This document shows, one piece after another, positions 8,061 through 48,498 of a DNA stretch of 64,000 nt. The notes beneath the pieces were generated by a model. The model saw only the letters and a program-made list of their open reading frames with translations. It searched no databases and was not told the DNA's origin. The DNA comes from Caldicellulosiruptor owensensis OL (GTDB lineage: Bacteria > Bacillota > Thermoanaerobacteria > Caldicellulosiruptorales > Caldicellulosiruptoraceae). Every line of letters starts with the position of its first letter. The stretch's first letter is position 1. Made by a program: the position numbers and the translations under genes. The stretch covers positions 860,501 to 924,500 of the forward strand of contig NC_014657.1 of NCBI RefSeq assembly GCF_000166335.1, given 5' to 3'.

Positions 8061-10244
8061 ATGAGAGCAAAGGCAGTTTCGAAAAAGAAGAGATATAAAA
8101 TAAAAAAAGAGGTTTTTGACAGGTTAAATGCTGAGGTGTACGGGACTTTTTTGTTATTTGTCTTTCTATTTCTTGTTTTTTCAGTTTCAACGGATAAAGT
8201 AGGAATAGTTGGCGATTTTGTCAAGAAAACCTTGTTAGGATGTTTTGGAGCAGGTGTTTTCTTAATCTTTGCTTTCATGCTCTATGTATCGCTGGATTCA
8301 ATTTTAAGAAGGGCAAGGGTGTTTGACAAAAGGGATATAATTGTATTTACCTATATACTTCTTATATTCATGATTTTTACCACCTTTATGCAAGCAAATA
8401 TAAAATCTTCTGGTTCATTTATAAAGGTTTTAAAAGACGCATACTTTGATGGTTTGAACTTCAAGGGATTTGGTGTTTTCGGCTGGGCTATTACATACCC
8501 TTTTGTATCGTTGTTTGGTTTTACAGGCACGCTCATTATTTGTTTTTCCACGCTTATAATCATGAGTATGATTGTTTTCAGCTTTTCGATAAGGGATTTT
8601 TTAAAACAGAGAAAGCTTAAAAATAACCAGCAAAATGAAAAAAGGGTAGAAAAGACTGAAGAGAATATAAAGATAAAAAGCAATGGGTTTTATAACTTCA
8701 ATTCTGATGCTGATATAGAAGAAGAAAAAAAAAGTGAAGAGGTCATTGTAAATATACCTGAAAAATCTAAGAAAAGTAATAAGGTTGTAGCCAAAAAACA
8801 AACATTACAATCAAGCAGTCAATATTTGTATCCTCCTATTGACTATCTTAAAAAACAAAATGATAACTTGCAGGTTTCGAGAAAAGATGTAAATGAAAAT
8901 ATAAGAAAGCTGGAAGAGACGTTAAAAAACTTTGGTATTGAAGCTCAGGTGACAGAAGTAAATGTTGGACCCACAATTACAAGATATGAGCTGCAACCGG
9001 GACAGGGGGTAAAGGTCAGCAGAATTGTCAATCTTTCTGATGACATTGCGCTTGCACTGGCAGCACCATCTGTTAGAATTGAGGCACCAATTCCAAACAA
9101 GTCTGCAATAGGAATAGAAATTCCAAACAGAGAACCAAAACCTGTTTATATAAGAGAGCTGATTGAAAGTCCGGATTTTTACACACTGCAGTACAAGATA
9201 CCATTTGCCATAGGTAAAGACGTTGCAGGAAGTCCTGTGATAGCAGATATAACAAAAATGCCTCACCTTTTGATTGCAGGTGCAACGGGGTCGGGGAAGA
9301 GTGTGTGTATAAATTCGCTTATAATAAGCATTCTTTACAGGTGCATACCTGATGAGGTAAAACTAATTTTAATTGACCCCAAGGTGGTTGAACTGAGTCT
9401 GTACAATGGTATACCTCATCTTTTAATACCTGTTGTAACAGATGCAAAGAAAGCTGCAAATGCTCTTGCCTGGGCAGTAGGAGAAATGACAAACCGTTAC
9501 AAACTGTTTGCTCAAGCAGGAGTAAGAGATGTTATTGGTTATAACAAGTGGTGTGATGAAAATGGACAAGAAAAACTTCCATATATTGTAATTATTATAG
9601 ATGAACTTGCCGACCTTATGATGGTATCACCTGCCGAGGTTGAAGACAGCATATGCAGGCTTGCGCAGATGGCACGGGCAGCGGGTATGCATCTTGTTGT
9701 TGCGACCCAGAGACCTTCTGTAGATGTCATCACTGGTCTTATTAAAGCAAATATTCCGTCGCGAATAGCCTTTGCTGTATCATCCCAAGTTGACTCACGA
9801 ACAATTTTAGACCAGGCGGGTGCTGAAAAGCTTTTGGGAAGAGGTGATATGCTATATCTTCCAATAGGTTTGGCAAAACCTCTGAGAGTTCAAGGTGCAT
9901 ATGTTTCTGAAAGCGAAGTTGAGAAGGTTGTGGAGTTTTTAAAACAGAACTCTAACATTGAGTACAATCAGGAAGTGATTGAAGAGATAAACAGCAAGGT
10001 TTTAGATGTTAAAGATGATAAGGCTGATGAGCTTTTGATCAAGGCTATTCAGCTTGTGGTGGAAGCGCAGAATGTTTCAACCTCGTTTTTACAAAGAAAA
10101 CTCAGAATTGGTTATTCAAGGGCGGCAAGGCTGATTGACCAGATGGAGGAAAGAGGAATAATTAGCAAGATGGATTCTACCGGCAAACGCCAGGTTTTAA
10201 TAACCAAAGAGCAGTTTGACGAGATGCTTATGAATATGGAGTGA
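8061..10244 (+). CDS. ftsK: DNA translocase FtsK/SpoIIIE
   Basis: About 727 residues. An N-terminal membrane domain with roughly four hydrophobic spans (to about residue 180) is followed by a charged linker and the motor: Walker A GATGSGKS near 407-414, Walker B IIIDELADLM near 511-520. The C-terminal winged-helix gamma domain (FLQRKLRIGYSRAARLID) reads directional DNA motifs. An in-frame TTG exists at 8004, but a TATAAT at 8016-8021 and GAAAGGA before ATG 8061 favour the later start. It pumps chromosomes through septa. Confidence 0.95.
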   Translation: MRAKAVSKKKRYKIKKEVFDRLNAEVYGTFLLFVFLFLVFSVSTDKVGIVGDFVKKTLLGCFGAGVFLIFAFMLYVSLDSILRRARVFDKRDIIVFTYILLIFMIFTTFMQANIKSSGSFIKVLKDAYFDGLNFKGFGVFGWAITYPFVSLFGFTGTLIICFSTLIIMSMIVFSFSIRDFLKQRKLKNNQQNEKRVEKTEENIKIKSNGFYNFNSDADIEEEKKSEEVIVNIPEKSKKSNKVVAKKQTLQSSSQYLYPPIDYLKKQNDNLQVSRKDVNENIRKLEETLKNFGIEAQVTEVNVGPTITRYELQPGQGVKVSRIVNLSDDIALALAAPSVRIEAPIPNKSAIGIEIPNREPKPVYIRELIESPDFYTLQYKIPFAIGKDVAGSPVIADITKMPHLLIAGATGSGKSVCINSLIISILYRCIPDEVKLILIDPKVVELSLYNGIPHLLIPVVTDAKKAANALAWAVGEMTNRYKLFAQAGVRDVIGYNKWCDENGQEKLPYIVIIIDELADLMMVSPAEVEDSICRLAQMARAAGMHLVVATQRPSVDVITGLIKANIPSRIAFAVSSQVDSRTILDQAGAEKLLGRGDMLYLPIGLAKPLRVQGAYVSESEVEKVVEFLKQNSNIEYNQEVIEEINSKVLDVKDDKADELLIKAIQLVVEAQNVSTSFLQRKLRIGYSRAARLIDQMEERGIISKMDSTGKRQVLITKEQFDEMLMNME

Positions 10245-41687: not shown

Positions 41688-42878
41688 ATGTACAAAACAC
41701 AGAAAAATCATATAAGATGTGATAAACAAACGTACAGGGCAGTTCGAATCCTATGCCGTCTTTCAAAGAATCTGTACAACTATGCACTCTACCATGTAAG
41801 ACAACACTATTTTAAAACTCAGGAATATCTTCGATATGAAAATGTATATCATCTTGTAAAAGGGAACGAAAACTACAGATTACTACCATCTCAAGTTGCC
41901 CAGCAAACCATTTTAGCAGTGGACCAAGCTTTTAAATCGTTTTTTGGTTCACTGAAAGCAAAGAAAAAAGGAAAGATTGACAAGAAGATTTCCATGCCAA
42001 AGTACTTGCCCAAGGATGGGATGTTTCTTCTCAGTTTTCCTGAAGACCAGTTCAAGGTAGAAGGGAACAAATTGAGATTGAGTCTGGGTAGGAATTTCTA
42101 CAAAGAGTTTGGGACAAAGTATTTGTATTTTGAACTGCCAGTAACAGTTTCAGGTAAGAGGATAAAAGAAGTCAGGATAGTAGCAAGGTTTCATGGTAAA
42201 TGGTTTGAGATTGAGTATGTGTATGAAGAAGAAGAGCAGAGTTGTGATCTTAACAAAGACAGGTACTTATCAATAGACCTTGGTCTTGACAATTTTGCGG
42301 CTGTAGTTGATACCATCGGGACTGCCTTTTTGATAGAAGGCAGGTATATAAAATCAGTTAACCGATGGTACAACAAAGAAAAAGCAAGACTGCAGAGTAT
42401 ATACTCAAAGCAGGGTGTAAAATTTGGTAAAAAACTTGCTCAGATTTCTCTTAAAAGACAGCATATAATTGACAATTTTTTAAATCAGGCAGTGAACAGG
42501 ATAGTTAAGCATTGTCTAAACAATCAAATTGGGACAGTAGTAGTTGGAGAAATGAAGAGTATAAAACAAGAGATAGGACTTGGGAGAGTGAATAATCAAA
42601 ACTTTGTGAGTATTCCGTATGATAAGTTCAAGAGGAAGTTAGAAACAAAGTGCAGGTATTATGGCATAGAGTATATGGAAATTGATGAAAGTTATACTTC
42701 ACAGAGATGTAGCAGATGTGGGACGGTCAAGAAAAGTAACAGGAAATACAGGGGATTGTATATGTGCAGAGATTGCGGGTATGTAGTAAATGCGGATATA
42801 AATGGAGCGATGAACATACTTGCAAAAGTAGCTGGCGAATCTGCTAAGATAGCAGATAGCTTAGTTGTGGGTGTGTGA
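41688..42878 (+). CDS. tnpB: RNA-guided nuclease TnpB
   Basis: 396 residues, full length. RuvC-type catalytic residues: D197 in SIDLGLDNFA, E288 in VVVGEMKSIKQ, D370 in NADINGAMNI. Zinc finger C341-x2-C344 and C360-x2-C363. N-terminal HIRCDKQTYRAVRILC is TnpB-like. Known TnpBs cut DNA guided by an RNA from the element's right end, helping element retention; all catalytic residues are present, so it may be active. Confidence 0.93.
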   Translation: MYKTQKNHIRCDKQTYRAVRILCRLSKNLYNYALYHVRQHYFKTQEYLRYENVYHLVKGNENYRLLPSQVAQQTILAVDQAFKSFFGSLKAKKKGKIDKKISMPKYLPKDGMFLLSFPEDQFKVEGNKLRLSLGRNFYKEFGTKYLYFELPVTVSGKRIKEVRIVARFHGKWFEIEYVYEEEEQSCDLNKDRYLSIDLGLDNFAAVVDTIGTAFLIEGRYIKSVNRWYNKEKARLQSIYSKQGVKFGKKLAQISLKRQHIIDNFLNQAVNRIVKHCLNNQIGTVVVGEMKSIKQEIGLGRVNNQNFVSIPYDKFKRKLETKCRYYGIEYMEIDESYTSQRCSRCGTVKKSNRKYRGLYMCRDCGYVVNADINGAMNILAKVAGESAKIADSLVVGV

Positions 42879-43142: not shown

Positions 43143-44345
43143 ATGCCTGCAAAGACAAAAAAGAGAGGGAATAATGAAGGCAGCATATACAAAAGGAAAG
43201 ATGGGCTCTGCTGCGGTCAAATCACCATAGGAAGAGATGAAAACGGCAGACAAAAGCGGCAGTATTTCTATGGCAAGACAAGACAGGAAGTTGCCGACAA
43301 GATAGCCAAGGCACTGAACGACTTAGCAAACGGAATATATGTTGAGCCTGCAAGAATGCTATTAAAAGACTGGCTTCATACTTGGCTTTGGGAATACAAA
43401 AAACAAACATTGCGACCTTCAACTTTTAAAGATTATTTATGTTATATTGAAAGACATATAAATCCTACAATTGGTCATTATAAGTTGAAAGAACTTCGCC
43501 CAGAACATCTTCAAACTTTGTATAACGTAAAATATCAAGAAGGATTGAGCATAAGCACAATTAAACAAATTCATACTGTTTTACATTCAGCTTTAGACCA
43601 AGCTTTGAAAAATGGACTTGTCAACAGAAATGTTTCAGAGGCAACCACTTTACCAAAAGGCAAGCCAAAAAGAGAGATAAGAATACTGAGTTTAGAAGAA
43701 CAACAAAGATTTATTGCAGCTTTGGAAAGGGAAAGATTGAAAACTGCGTTTCTTGTTGAGTTAGCAAGTGGACTTAGAATTGGTGAACTTTTAGCTTTGC
43801 GCTGGAAAGATGTTAATTTTAAGGATGGATACATTGAAGTTAGAAGGTCTTTACAGCGTGTAAGGATTTTTGATGGAGGCAATTCTAAAAAGACTGCACT
43901 TGCTTTTCAAGAACCTAAAACAGAAGCAGGTAAAAGAATAGTGCCTTTGCCACCAGTAATAATTGAAGAGTTAAAACAGCACAGAAAAAAACAGTTAGAA
44001 GAAAAACTGAAAGCTGGAGCGCTTTATGAAGATAACGATTTAGTATTTGCAACAGAGCTTGGTACCCCAATTGACCCAAGAAATTTTGAAAGGCTTTTTT
44101 ACAGAATTAGAGAAAAAGCGGGACTTGACAAGAGTGTCAATTTTCATGCATTAAGACACACATATGCAACAAGGCTTTTAGAAGCAAATGAACATCCCAA
44201 AGTTGTTCAAGAGCTTTTAGGACATAAAGATATTTCTACAACCCTCAATATTTATTCTCATGTTATGCCTGAGATAAAGAAAGCTGCTGCAATGAAATTA
44301 AACAGCTTATTTGAGGATATAAAAACAAAGGGTAACCACTCCTGA
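43143..44345 (+). CDS. Tyrosine recombinase / integrase (left of the att site)
   Basis: 400 residues: an N-terminal arm-binding domain (GSIYKRKDGLCCGQI), a SAM-like core-binding domain (about 70-165), and a catalytic domain with R212, H335-x2-R338, H361 and Y371. All key residues are present. It points at the tRNA-Thr fragment 110 bp downstream and is convergent with the prophage integrase, so it may belong to a second, mostly lost element. Confidence 0.92.
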   Translation: MPAKTKKRGNNEGSIYKRKDGLCCGQITIGRDENGRQKRQYFYGKTRQEVADKIAKALNDLANGIYVEPARMLLKDWLHTWLWEYKKQTLRPSTFKDYLCYIERHINPTIGHYKLKELRPEHLQTLYNVKYQEGLSISTIKQIHTVLHSALDQALKNGLVNRNVSEATTLPKGKPKREIRILSLEEQQRFIAALERERLKTAFLVELASGLRIGELLALRWKDVNFKDGYIEVRRSLQRVRIFDGGNSKKTALAFQEPKTEAGKRIVPLPPVIIEELKQHRKKQLEEKLKAGALYEDNDLVFATELGTPIDPRNFERLFYRIREKAGLDKSVNFHALRHTYATRLLEANEHPKVVQELLGHKDISTTLNIYSHVMPEIKKAAAMKLNSLFEDIKTKGNHS

Positions 44346-44405: not shown

Positions 44406-44454
44406 GAAAATGTATTTGTTATATTTTACCTATCCTCAAACCCCTTGTTTTTAC

Positions 44455-44500
44455 TGGAGCTCCATGGGGGATTCGAACCCCCGACCGGTCGATTACGAAT
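44455..44500 (-). pseudogene. Displaced 3' part of tRNA-Thr(CGU): prophage attL
   Basis: On the minus strand this reads as the 3' part of a tRNA: anticodon loop TTCGTAA (CGT), stem TCGAC, a GGGGG-TTCGAAT-CCCCC T arm, acceptor ATGGAGC, discriminator T and CCA. The 5' half is not present to the right. Integration into a tRNA 3' end leaves such a fragment at the integrase side and a restored tRNA at the far end, which here would lie beyond 64000. Confidence 0.65.
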
Positions 44501-44565
44501 AGAACTAATCATTTTGTTAAATCCTTGCAAAATCAAGCTTTTCAACATAGATTAGCTGCTCATTG

Positions 44566-45696
44566 CTAATCTTTTGCTAATCTCTGCTCTAACTTCTCAA
44601 TTGCTTCTCTTTGCATATCTAAGTTTACATGTGAGTATAAATCCATCGTGATTGAGATTTGTGAATGCCCAAGTCTGTCTGATATGACTTTCATATTCAC
44701 ACCAGCTTGCAATAACAAAGTCGCATGTGTATGCCGTAAATCATGAAAGCGAATTTTCTTTATTTCATTTTGTTTGCTTAATATCTTGCTAAACTTTTTG
44801 CTTACATAATCAGGAACTTTGAACCTGCCATCTTCCCAAACACTGATAAAACCATCGTATGTTGTATCATAGTTTTGACCAAACTTTAGCTTGTTCTCAA
44901 GTTGCCTCTTTTTCTCTTCCTTCAATATTTCAACCAAATTATCTGTAAGTGCCACAATTCGCAGGCTTTTATCTGTTTTAGGTTTTTCCTTTATCACCAC
45001 TTCACCGTTTATATACTCTGCCACTCTGCGGACTGCACACACCTTGTTCTTAAAGTCAATATCATCCCATTTCAAACCGCATACTTCTCCAAGTCGCATC
45101 CCTGTGTAAAGAGCAAGCATAACATGAGCAAAGATTGGAGTATCTCTAAAAACTTCTTCAGCTTTCCTTATTTCATCCAAGTTCCAAACTTGCATTTCTT
45201 TTCGGTCTTTCTTCGGGGTTTCCACATTATCAAAAGGATTTTTAGTTACATACTGCCATTTCACTGCAAAATTATAGATTTCTCTCAACAAGCGATGAAC
45301 ATAATTCAGCGTTGTATTAGATATGCCTTGTTCCTTGAGAGTGTTATAAAACTTTGCGATTGTAAGTGGCTTCAAAGTAGCAAGTTCAATATCATTCAGA
45401 TATGGCAGCACATAAAAACGTAGCATTTTTTGATATGACTCTTGCGTCTTTGGAGTTAGCTTTTTACAGTGTATCTCAAACCACTCATTTATAAATTCTC
45501 CAATCGTTACATTCTTGTCTTCAACAAACTCTTGCTTTTCAATCTGATTTACAAGCTCAGCTAAAGCTTTCTCGGCTTCTTTTTTCGTTTTGAAGCCACT
45601 ATACCACTTGTACTTTTTCTTGCCTGTTGTTTCATCACGTCCAACATATACTACCACGCTATACGTGCTGCCTCGCTTTCTGATGTGTCCGCGCAT
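44566..45696 (-). CDS. Prophage tyrosine integrase
   Basis: 376 residues from ATG 45696, which follows GAGGTG. An N-terminal AP2-like arm-binding domain (GHIRKRGSTYSVVVYVG) and SAM-like domain precede the catalytic domain with R201, H318-x2-R321, H344 and Y354. It ends 66 bp from the tRNA-Thr fragment, the usual int-att arrangement, so it most likely mediates integration there. A likely promoter at 45778-45807 is back to back with that of the structured RNA. Confidence 0.94.
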   Translation of the reverse strand: MRGHIRKRGSTYSVVVYVGRDETTGKKKYKWYSGFKTKKEAEKALAELVNQIEKQEFVEDKNVTIGEFINEWFEIHCKKLTPKTQESYQKMLRFYVLPYLNDIELATLKPLTIAKFYNTLKEQGISNTTLNYVHRLLREIYNFAVKWQYVTKNPFDNVETPKKDRKEMQVWNLDEIRKAEEVFRDTPIFAHVMLALYTGMRLGEVCGLKWDDIDFKNKVCAVRRVAEYINGEVVIKEKPKTDKSLRIVALTDNLVEILKEEKKRQLENKLKFGQNYDTTYDGFISVWEDGRFKVPDYVSKKFSKILSKQNEIKKIRFHDLRHTHATLLLQAGVNMKVISDRLGHSQISITMDLYSHVNLDMQREAIEKLEQRLAKD

Positions 45697-45777
45697 GTTA
45701 AACACCTCGCAAAAAGGTATAAATTATTGTTGTTATGTGAATAATTTTAAATAGAATCGCACGAAATTATACACTAA

Positions 45778-45807
45778 AATATAATACAAAACAATATCAA
45801 ATGTCAA
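45778..45807 (-). promoter_or_regulatory. Integrase promoter (leftward)
   Basis: On the minus strand, TTGACA (45807-45802), an 18-bp spacer and TATATT (45783-45778), about 80 bp before the integrase start. Its -35 is one half of a perfect dyad shared with the rightward promoter. Confidence 0.5.
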
Positions 45808-45824
45808 AGAATGGATTGACATTT
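45799..45824. promoter_or_regulatory. Perfect dyad between two -35 elements
   Basis: AAATGTCAA and TTGACATTT form a perfect 9-bp inverted repeat with 8 bp between (45799-45807, 45816-45824). Each half contains the -35 hexamer of one of the two divergent promoters, so one dimeric regulator bound here could control both. Confidence 0.55.
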
Positions 45825-45844
45825 TTAAAAATGAAGCATATAAT
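45816..45844 (+). promoter_or_regulatory. Consensus sigma-A promoter for the structured RNA
   Basis: Perfect TTGACA (45816-45821), exactly 17 bp, perfect TATAAT (45839-45844). Predicted start near 45851. No open reading frame of note follows before the terminator at 45928. Confidence 0.8.
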
Positions 45845-45850
45845 AAAAGT

Positions 45851-45957
45851 GTATTTAGTTTATAAATAATGAATAGTAAGGGCAAGACCCGAACGGTGAG
45901 CCCTTCGGGGTCGGGGTAATCCCGACGAAGAGGTGCATTAAAAAATGCACCTCTTTT
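45851..45957 (+). ncRNA. Putative ~107-nt structured small RNA
   Basis: A GC-rich core stands out from AT-rich flanks. AAGGGC (45878-45883) pairs with GCCCTT (45900-45905); GACCC (45886-45890), inside that loop, can pair with GGGTC (45908-45912) outside it, giving an H-type pseudoknot. GTCGGG (45910-45915) can instead pair with CCCGAC (45921-45926), competing with the pseudoknot. A 12-bp terminator stem (45928-45955) with a short T tail ends it, 4 bp before the convergent DUF3800 stop. DUF3800-associated RNA motifs have been reported in bacteria; membership was not tested. Confidence 0.65.
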
Positions 45958-46908: not shown

Positions 46909-48498
46909 CTATTTATTCAAAGAAATACGAACATTGTAGCCATATTTCTGAAACAAATATACAAGATTTGAACCATCTATAAGTGTCAATGGTTTGTCTT
47001 TAGCAAATTCTATAGAATCACTTCCAAAGTAGCTTGTTGTTACTAATATACCTTTTGTTGCACCTTCATTTATTACCGTGCCATATAAATCCCGAACTGC
47101 GGAAACCGGCACAACATTGTTGTATCGCTTAGCTTGAATAACAAATTTTCCACCTCTAATTGGATCTGGGTCAAATACAATAGCATCCACTCCACCATCA
47201 CGACTTGCTCGAGTTACTTTAACTTCAGCACCATTTTCGCTAAACATTTTTTCAAATAATTGTCTTACAAGGTGTTCAAAATCCTCCCAGTCCATTGTTG
47301 CTAAATTATCGATCGAATTTATTTCGGCTAAAATATCTTTTGATTCTACAAAGCGTTTATCCTCTCTATTAATATCAAGAATTGGTTTAACAGGTGGTAA
47401 ATTGACAAGAGCACCAGCAAACAAACCTTTTAAATTTCTAATACATTCCTTATAATCAACTTTTGCAAGATTGATGTTCATAAACTCTTCTCTATTAGTG
47501 TGTAAGGAAATAATGCAAGATGTGAACTCATTACCTGTTGCTTTGTCAATGGCAGTAACCCACCCATTGAATACTACTGAGTCGATTGTATGAGCATAAT
47601 CTGCTTCGAATATTTCATGAATAGTTCTTAATGTAACTTGAAAAATAATGTTCTCGTAAAAAATATCAAATTCTTTTTTCTTCATTTCTACAGGTTTTAT
47701 AGATTTTGTAGATTGAACAAATTTATATTCAACTACCTTGGGTACTTGGTCTGGATTAGGTAGATTATAAGACACAATGAGGATTTTTGTTTTATCGTCA
47801 TATTGAATTTCGTAATCTTTATTAAAACTTGGAGGATATTTCGAATTCTCTAAAATAACTTTAACATATTTTTCAACTGCTTCTTTTTCGCCATTTTCAT
47901 AAGCATTCTTCCATTCGGTAATTGACTTATTATACTCTTCTATTTCTCTCTCATGCTGTTGTTTTTTTTCATAGTATTGTTTCTGTTCTTCTTCTAACTT
48001 CTTTTTATAATCTTCTAAAGCAGAGTTATAAGCTTGAATAGCTTTTGCTTCTTGACTTTCTCTCATTTTTCGAAGAGAAGGAATGATTTTTTCTAAAAAC
48101 GATTTTTTAGGTACATGATAAAGTTTATAATAATCTTCTAATCTTGGTTCTTTAAGATTTGTCTGAAAAGGTGGATATGAAGCTTTCTTATATTGGGTAT
48201 TCCAATCAAGTCTGTCATCAACTGTCAATGTATATTTGAGTATATTCTTGTAATCTTCAATTTCTTTTTGCGCTTCTTGTGTCATTCTTAAAGCTTCATT
48301 TTTAAGATACTCTTTTTCCTCTTTCTCAGCTAACTTTATACTTTGTATCCTTTCTCTTTCCCTCTTTTTATACTCTTCATATTCCCATTTAGCAAAAAGC
48401 TGTTGTTTTTTAAGTTCAAACTCCCAATACGAATCTGCTTTTATTGTTGCAGATTTCATGAGATAATCATTAAAAAAGGTTTGCTCATAACGAGCCAT
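46909..48498 (-). CDS. Mrr-type restriction endonuclease with long coiled-coil N-terminus
   Basis: 529 residues. The C-terminal 130 residues form an Mrr_cat domain: WEDFEHLVRQLFEKM, then DGGVDAI (D438) and QAKRY (Q455-x-K457), the PD-(D/E)xK core. The first ~210 residues are charged coiled coil; a beta-rich middle region is unrecognised. It follows the repressor by 21 bp and GGAGG precedes ATG 48498. Likely a defence nuclease for modified or foreign DNA; target unknown. Confidence 0.85.
   Translation of the reverse strand: MARYEQTFFNDYLMKSATIKADSYWEFELKKQQLFAKWEYEEYKKRERERIQSIKLAEKEEKEYLKNEALRMTQEAQKEIEDYKNILKYTLTVDDRLDWNTQYKKASYPPFQTNLKEPRLEDYYKLYHVPKKSFLEKIIPSLRKMRESQEAKAIQAYNSALEDYKKKLEEEQKQYYEKKQQHEREIEEYNKSITEWKNAYENGEKEAVEKYVKVILENSKYPPSFNKDYEIQYDDKTKILIVSYNLPNPDQVPKVVEYKFVQSTKSIKPVEMKKKEFDIFYENIIFQVTLRTIHEIFEADYAHTIDSVVFNGWVTAIDKATGNEFTSCIISLHTNREEFMNINLAKVDYKECIRNLKGLFAGALVNLPPVKPILDINREDKRFVESKDILAEINSIDNLATMDWEDFEHLVRQLFEKMFSENGAEVKVTRASRDGGVDAIVFDPDPIRGGKFVIQAKRYNNVVPVSAVRDLYGTVINEGATKGILVTTSYFGSDSIEFAKDKPLTLIDGSNLVYLFQKYGYNVRISLNK

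Follow-up and report, generated by a model that had tools for sequence, protein, structure and literature searches.

A small structured RNA convergent with DUF3800 genes, apparently an additional DUF3800-associated family and possibly the partner of an RNase-HII-like protein

The DNA analyzed here (the window) spans 64,000 nucleotides of the 2.43-Mb, single-contig genome of Caldicellulosiruptor owensensis OL and harbors a small RNA and a DUF3800 gene at the left edge of a ~29-kb prophage (Table 1). The tRNA-derived att direct repeats, which by reading appear to stem from tRNA-Thr (CGT), lie about 29 kb apart, one at ~44446-44503 and the second outside the window (G000:C1 ~933747-933801), and the provirus in IMG/VR measures 29,790 bp, in agreement with the prophage edge proposed in a preliminary description of this DNA. 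The prophage furthermore encodes a tyrosine integrase and, upstream of the DUF3800 gene, a Mrr-type restriction endonuclease. Two different tyrosine integrases lie back to back by the att repeat, that of the prophage on the minus strand and another at 43143-44345 on the plus strand, which may derive from another element occupying this site; an IS605 OrfB/TnpB-like gene (41688-42878) is located just outside the prophage.

The RNA is headed by a consensus promoter, the only perfect one between 44500 and 47500, and ends in a terminator stem followed by a T-run. Both had been recognized previously, as had the non-coding nature of the ~107-nt unit, which is corroborated by the lack of a conserved reading frame in its relatives, and its convergence with the DUF3800 gene, whose stop codon is only 5 bp away. 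The terminator is probably used in both directions and would thus be shared with the DUF3800 mRNA. A perfect 9-bp inverted repeat covering the -35 hexamer may serve as an operator; it is the only perfect copy in the window, where the other match (9023-9048) has three mismatches. A palindrome between -35 and -10, considered as a covarying operator, gave a mean arm score of 6.6 as compared to 5.2 for shuffled sequences, with p <= 0.05 in just 21% of loci, and is a weak lead only. In loci of the L041 type, the -35 region is palindromic and accompanied by an outward TAGTATAT on the opposite strand, ~50 nt past the -35 of the RNA; this may be a divergent promoter that borders the unit, comparable to the promoter-like site directed towards the integrase in the window.

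Table 1. Features of the RNA/DUF3800 locus (positions refer to the window)
Feature	Position	Strand	Remarks
Prophage tyrosine integrase	44566-45705	-	PF00589, E 6e-29
Divergent promoter-like site, towards integrase	45778-45807	-	TTGACA-18-TATATT; 11/12 match, not functional evidence
Perfect 9-bp inverted repeat, covering -35	45799-45824	.	AAATGTCAA-N8-TTGACATTT; candidate operator
Sigma-A promoter of the RNA	45816-45844	+	TTGACA-17-TATAAT; 12/12 consensus
Small non-coding RNA, ~107 nt	45851-45957	+	presumed start ~7 nt past -10; end given by terminator
Stem 1	45878-45905	+	45878-45883 with 45900-45905; covariation; entire stem found by model R1
CGGG linker joining the stems	45906-45909	+	GGG nearly invariant across the RNA family
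Stem 2	45910-45926	+	45910-45915 with 45921-45926, loop GTAAT; covariation; RNAalifold prediction
Intrinsic terminator hairpin	45927-45956	+	13-bp stem, then T-run
DUF3800 gene, 284 aa	45962-46816	-	PF12686, E 2e-9; predicted RNase-HII-like fold
Mrr-type restriction endonuclease gene	46909-48498	-	PF04471, E 2e-31; mREase_IV, E 2e-71

Folding of the full transcript yields a z-score of -6.3 against shuffled sequences, mainly because of the terminator, since removal of the latter leaves a z-score of -1.8. Likewise, the generic stem-GGG-stem pattern occurs twice in the window as compared to 2.25 times in simulated sequence, i.e., not above chance. Forcing stem 1 in the window RNA incurs a cost of 0.7 kcal/mol (-42.5 versus -43.2), the alternative fold being a local hairpin and not a pseudoknot. 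The anatomy of this copy alone is thus no proof of a structured core, which is instead supplied by its relatives.

As no full-length DNA homolog of the RNA was found in 13 genomes of the family, in phages, or in plasmids (DNA searches of IMG/VR returned only the same prophage), relatives were sought through the DUF3800 protein: homologs were taken from GTDB genomes, IMG/VR, phages, and plasmids, and the strand opposite the 3' end of each gene was read. The RNA adjoins the 3' end of DUF3800 in 66 of the 69 related loci (a few of them duplicated sequences), with 52 detected by a covariance model (E <= 1) and 14 by weaker criteria, namely a stem-2-plus-GGG rule (11) or, for three variants (L040, L049, L084), inspection by eye. 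Among the three loci lacking the RNA, the gene is truncated in L083, while the 3' flanks of L089 and L122 run, by sequence reading, into a PemK-like gene. The family consensus comprises stem 1, GGG, stem 2 (mostly 6-7 bp, capped by a GUAU-like loop), GG, and the terminator; the loop of stem 1, which has 16 nt in the window, is shorter in most relatives. The promoter layout is TTGACA-17-TAtaaT, with a perfect TTGACA in 50 and a 17-nt spacer in 54 of 61 cases.

Twenty-two relatives, but not the window, served to build the covariance model (R1). Over 96 sources (543 kb) it produced 53 matches at E <= 1, without exception 3' of DUF3800 genes, and those at the 52 loci are all convergent. Its best match across the 64-kb window is the RNA described here (16 bits, E 0.097); with filters off and confined to the 126-nt intergenic stretch, it recovered 45878-45930 (17.3 bits, E 9e-5). 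R1 found no match at alphaproteobacterial, actinobacterial, and other distant DUF3800 loci, nor were exact core patterns found in viral contigs. In an alignment of 42 distinct rows, which was fitted to the structure and is hence biased in its favor, 90.1% of cells are paired (73.2 when shuffled), 83 cells show double changes (28.5 when shuffled), and the covariation score amounts to 0.474 as compared to 0.193 (0 of 500 shuffles), with far lower values for slid structures. Double changes occur in 12 of the 13 pairs of stems 1 and 2; for stem 2 by itself, 95.2% of cells are paired and six of seven pairs show double changes. On the same alignment, RNAalifold independently predicted stem 2, but not stem 1. 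The previously proposed tie between a structured RNA and DUF3800 is therefore well founded, given the 66 loci and the covarying stems.

The competing folds suggested in the preliminary description fared differently. All three complementarities on which they were based are present (45878-45883/45900-45905, 45886-45890/45908-45912, and 45910-45915/45921-45926), and the first and third pass the check for compensatory changes. The third, however, is the conserved stem 2 rather than a hairpin rivaling a pseudoknot. The second, a 5-bp helix from loop 1 to the linker that would create the pseudoknot, was rejected as a conserved feature, as it is essentially private to the window copy, recurring only in L053 (one of 62 relatives); it overlaps stem 2 and cannot coexist with all of it.

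Linkage of RNA and protein is tight. In 12 host genomes, R1 detected the RNA once in 11, always as the known copy, plus one chance match inside a gene, and in 344 genomes of one phylum a single further copy, again beside DUF3800, plus another chance match; no significant match to an RNA without DUF3800 was obtained in either set. The only candidates for such solitary RNAs were these chance matches, which lie within coding genes (L138, L140). RNA and protein distances agree closely (Mantel r 0.88, permutation maximum 0.46), as expected under joint inheritance, which would equally follow from a role in cis or in mobility. A tree of 55 DUF3800 proteins requires two label changes, with the RNA confined to one side, where a single loss marks a nested clade made up of lactobacilli and streptococci (98/93 support). 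In all three scanned members of this RNA-less clade, a PemK/MazF-family gene lies directly downstream of DUF3800. The lactobacilli L029, L030, and L032 carry it 3' of DUF3800, where the RNA would stand.

Gene, RNA, and promoter move together between unrelated sites as a unit of ~1 kb, whose copies share 80-97% identity in unrelated contexts. For example, L041 matches the G713 and G702 loci over gene, RNA, and promoter only. The left edge of the unit is situated just before the Shine-Dalgarno sequence and the right edge ~50 nt past the -35 of the RNA, yet edges vary among copies, and L075 includes 90 nt of the end of an adjacent gene. Some copies of the unit neighbor repressors and integrases of phages, others are plasmid-borne or lie amid unrelated genes of the chromosome, and the flanking genes all differ (tRNA synthetases, Mur ligase, gyrase, S7, phage integrases, recombinases, repressors). 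Inspection of the aligned edges of copies by eye revealed neither terminal inverted repeats nor target duplications, and a search for empty sites that would define the exact ends gave neither a clean site nor a target duplication, synteny being too poor. Several copies adjoin tRNA genes, namely tRNA-Phe (L056, L061, L070, L071, L072), tRNA-Arg (L052, L085), tRNA-Gln (L053), tRNA-Pro (L028), and tRNA-Gly (L038).

For the DUF3800 protein of the window, an AlphaFold2 model (pLDDT 95) finds its top Foldseek matches in the PDB among RNase HII (best 1eke) and then RNase HI, with probabilities of 0.97-0.98; these matches are weak, with a best E of 4e-3, none at E <= 1e-3, and TM values of about 0.4. 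Conserved residues comprise D24 (49/50, one gap), E25, E185, R187, G188, D192, and D243, of which the acidic ones are invariant among the compared proteins apart from the single gap. The adjacent D24 and E25 are reminiscent of the first motif of RNase HII. A published AlphaFold2 analysis also assigned an RNase H fold to DUF3800 (PMC10910872). Sequence searches with DUF3800 returned no solved structures, no RuvC/TnpB Pfam match was found, PADLOC includes no DUF3800 model, and our literature search for its function found no paper. The window copy alone deviates at two near-invariant positions, with V97 in place of H and E102 in place of R (each in 48/50), and judging from its sequence may therefore be altered or inactive.

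Small RNAs adjoining DUF3800 genes are known from Rfam as the DUF3800 motifs, to which the preliminary description had likened the RNA without deciding whether it was one of them. The RNA shares their traits, as it adjoins a PF12686 gene and has a conserved, covarying secondary structure. None of the Rfam 15 families, including those of DUF3800, matched it, and permissive thresholds gave chance-level matches only; as far as this comparison with Rfam models reaches, the RNA is an additional DUF3800-associated family. It differs in sequence and structure from the Rfam motifs, of which DUF3800-VII (RF02967) and DUF3800-VIII (RF03075) were encountered in the loci analyzed, whereas DUF3800-I (RF02969) and DUF3800-IX (RF02968) are listed by name. 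In L067, a single DUF3800 gene is accompanied by DUF3800-VII and -VIII side by side on its 5' side (L067:2143-2322) and by the new RNA on its 3' side, and there the Rfam models of the two former match other places than the new RNA. The promoters of DUF3800-VII and the new RNA in L067 share 59 of 68 positions, the similarity reaching to where the RNA body begins (alignment score 44, shuffled maximum 15), and that of the new RNA in L061 matches the promoter of DUF3800-VII in G667 at 47 of 56. Shared gene and promoter likeness thus indicate that the new RNA is of the same kind, albeit outside every Rfam family tested.

We tentatively favor the view that RNA and protein form a cassette in which an RNase-HII-like nuclease is controlled by its RNA partner, which would act in trans as an antitoxin. 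Such a cassette would consist of the DUF3800 protein with its predicted nuclease fold and a short RNA that is strongly and constitutively transcribed. The RNA would bind DUF3800 via the GGG linker and stem 2 and, as long as it is abundant, keep the nuclease in check, while loss of the RNA, be it through loss of the element or because a second phage stops host transcription, would free the nuclease. Much as with RNA antitoxins, the cassette could hence serve addiction or immunity to superinfection; an addiction or immunity role, already considered in the preliminary description, is possible from context. The antitoxin side is favored on circumstantial grounds, i.e., a promoter that is strong and constitutive, the mobility of the two-part unit, the repressor and integrase neighbors in several phages, and the swap for a PemK-family gene. 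Type III toxin-antitoxin systems (ToxIN, CptIN, TenpIN) resemble the new cassette in that a structured small RNA travels together with a nuclease, here a predicted one. In contrast to the ToxIN-type antitoxin, no tandem repeats were found in the new RNA, which moreover lies downstream of the protein gene in convergent orientation instead of preceding it within one operon, and DUF3800 appears RNase-H-like rather than ToxN/AbiQ-type (Pfam DUF3800 only; Foldseek RNase HII/HI).

Alternatively, though with lower probability, the trans-acting RNA of such a cassette may be an activating cofactor or guide, such that DUF3800 would work only as an RNA-protein complex in which the RNA recognizes the substrate. 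The RNase H fold is common to RNA-guided nucleases, accessory proteins of some Cas12a2 and VI-F loci belong to DUF3800 (PMC10910872, PMC12669027), and the linker and loops of the RNA are conserved. TnpB/IscB with their omega-RNA resemble the pair in combining an RNase H fold (that of RuvC), which is predicted for DUF3800 as well, with an RNA encoded close by. However, the new RNA measures just ~60-110 nt and is closed by a terminator, shows no variable guide-like segment, and ends at the gene and not in flanking DNA, and DUF3800 has no RuvC/TnpB match.

Less probable is a role of the RNA in cis, in which convergent transcription, antisense pairing at the 3' end, or structure in the 3' region would limit expression of DUF3800. 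Its convergent position next to the stop codon in nearly all loci and the presumably shared terminator would fit, but antisense pairing needs no covarying helices, and the window transcript stops before the coding sequence. In Breznakia (L084), furthermore, RNA and DUF3800 gene are arranged in tandem and share one strand, the RNA having a promoter to itself, and antisense overlap is thus dispensable.

Improbable, too, is a role of protein and RNA in movement of the unit itself, with a transposase- or resolvase-like use of the RNase H fold. This would account for the similar copies between differing flanks and for several copies by tRNA genes; against it stand the variable edges without visible terminal repeats or target duplications and the single RNA per host genome, unlike a typical insertion sequence.

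Finally, an artifact, i.e., a chance promoter and terminator beside a gene, or a short coding gene, is barely credible: the core fold of the window copy barely beats shuffles and a 16-codon ORF can be read, but the relatives in 66 of 69 loci, the covariation, and frame-changing indels of 1-2 nt among close relatives speak against it. A coding reading was suggested by the similar peptides of L041 (MSKAIIFAWGSWYRGR) and L055 and was rejected, as the frame relative to GGGG shifts among close relatives, the indels lying between start codon and linker, so that no reading frame is conserved.

Returning to the RNA-controlled nuclease, a broader and rather doubtful extension would be a new class of addiction or immunity modules, in which a small, exchangeable RNA controls an RNase-HII-like DUF3800 protein, with one and the same promoter driving either the new RNA or DUF3800-VII and a PemK/MazF-type gene replacing the RNA in one lineage. 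If true, this would offer a single functional explanation for all DUF3800 RNA motifs, several of which were listed earlier without an established function. To this question the new RNA brings a small, clearly delimited, covarying structure, near-universal linkage in one clade, a promoter homologous to that of a known motif, and a lineage with a toxin-family swap, and the ~1-kb size of the cassette makes the effect of DUF3800 RNAs on DUF3800 directly testable.

In G667, a short gene end converges on the DUF3800-VII RNA (L211:1450-1510); no DUF3800 gene was found at this site, and the gene end may be a remnant.
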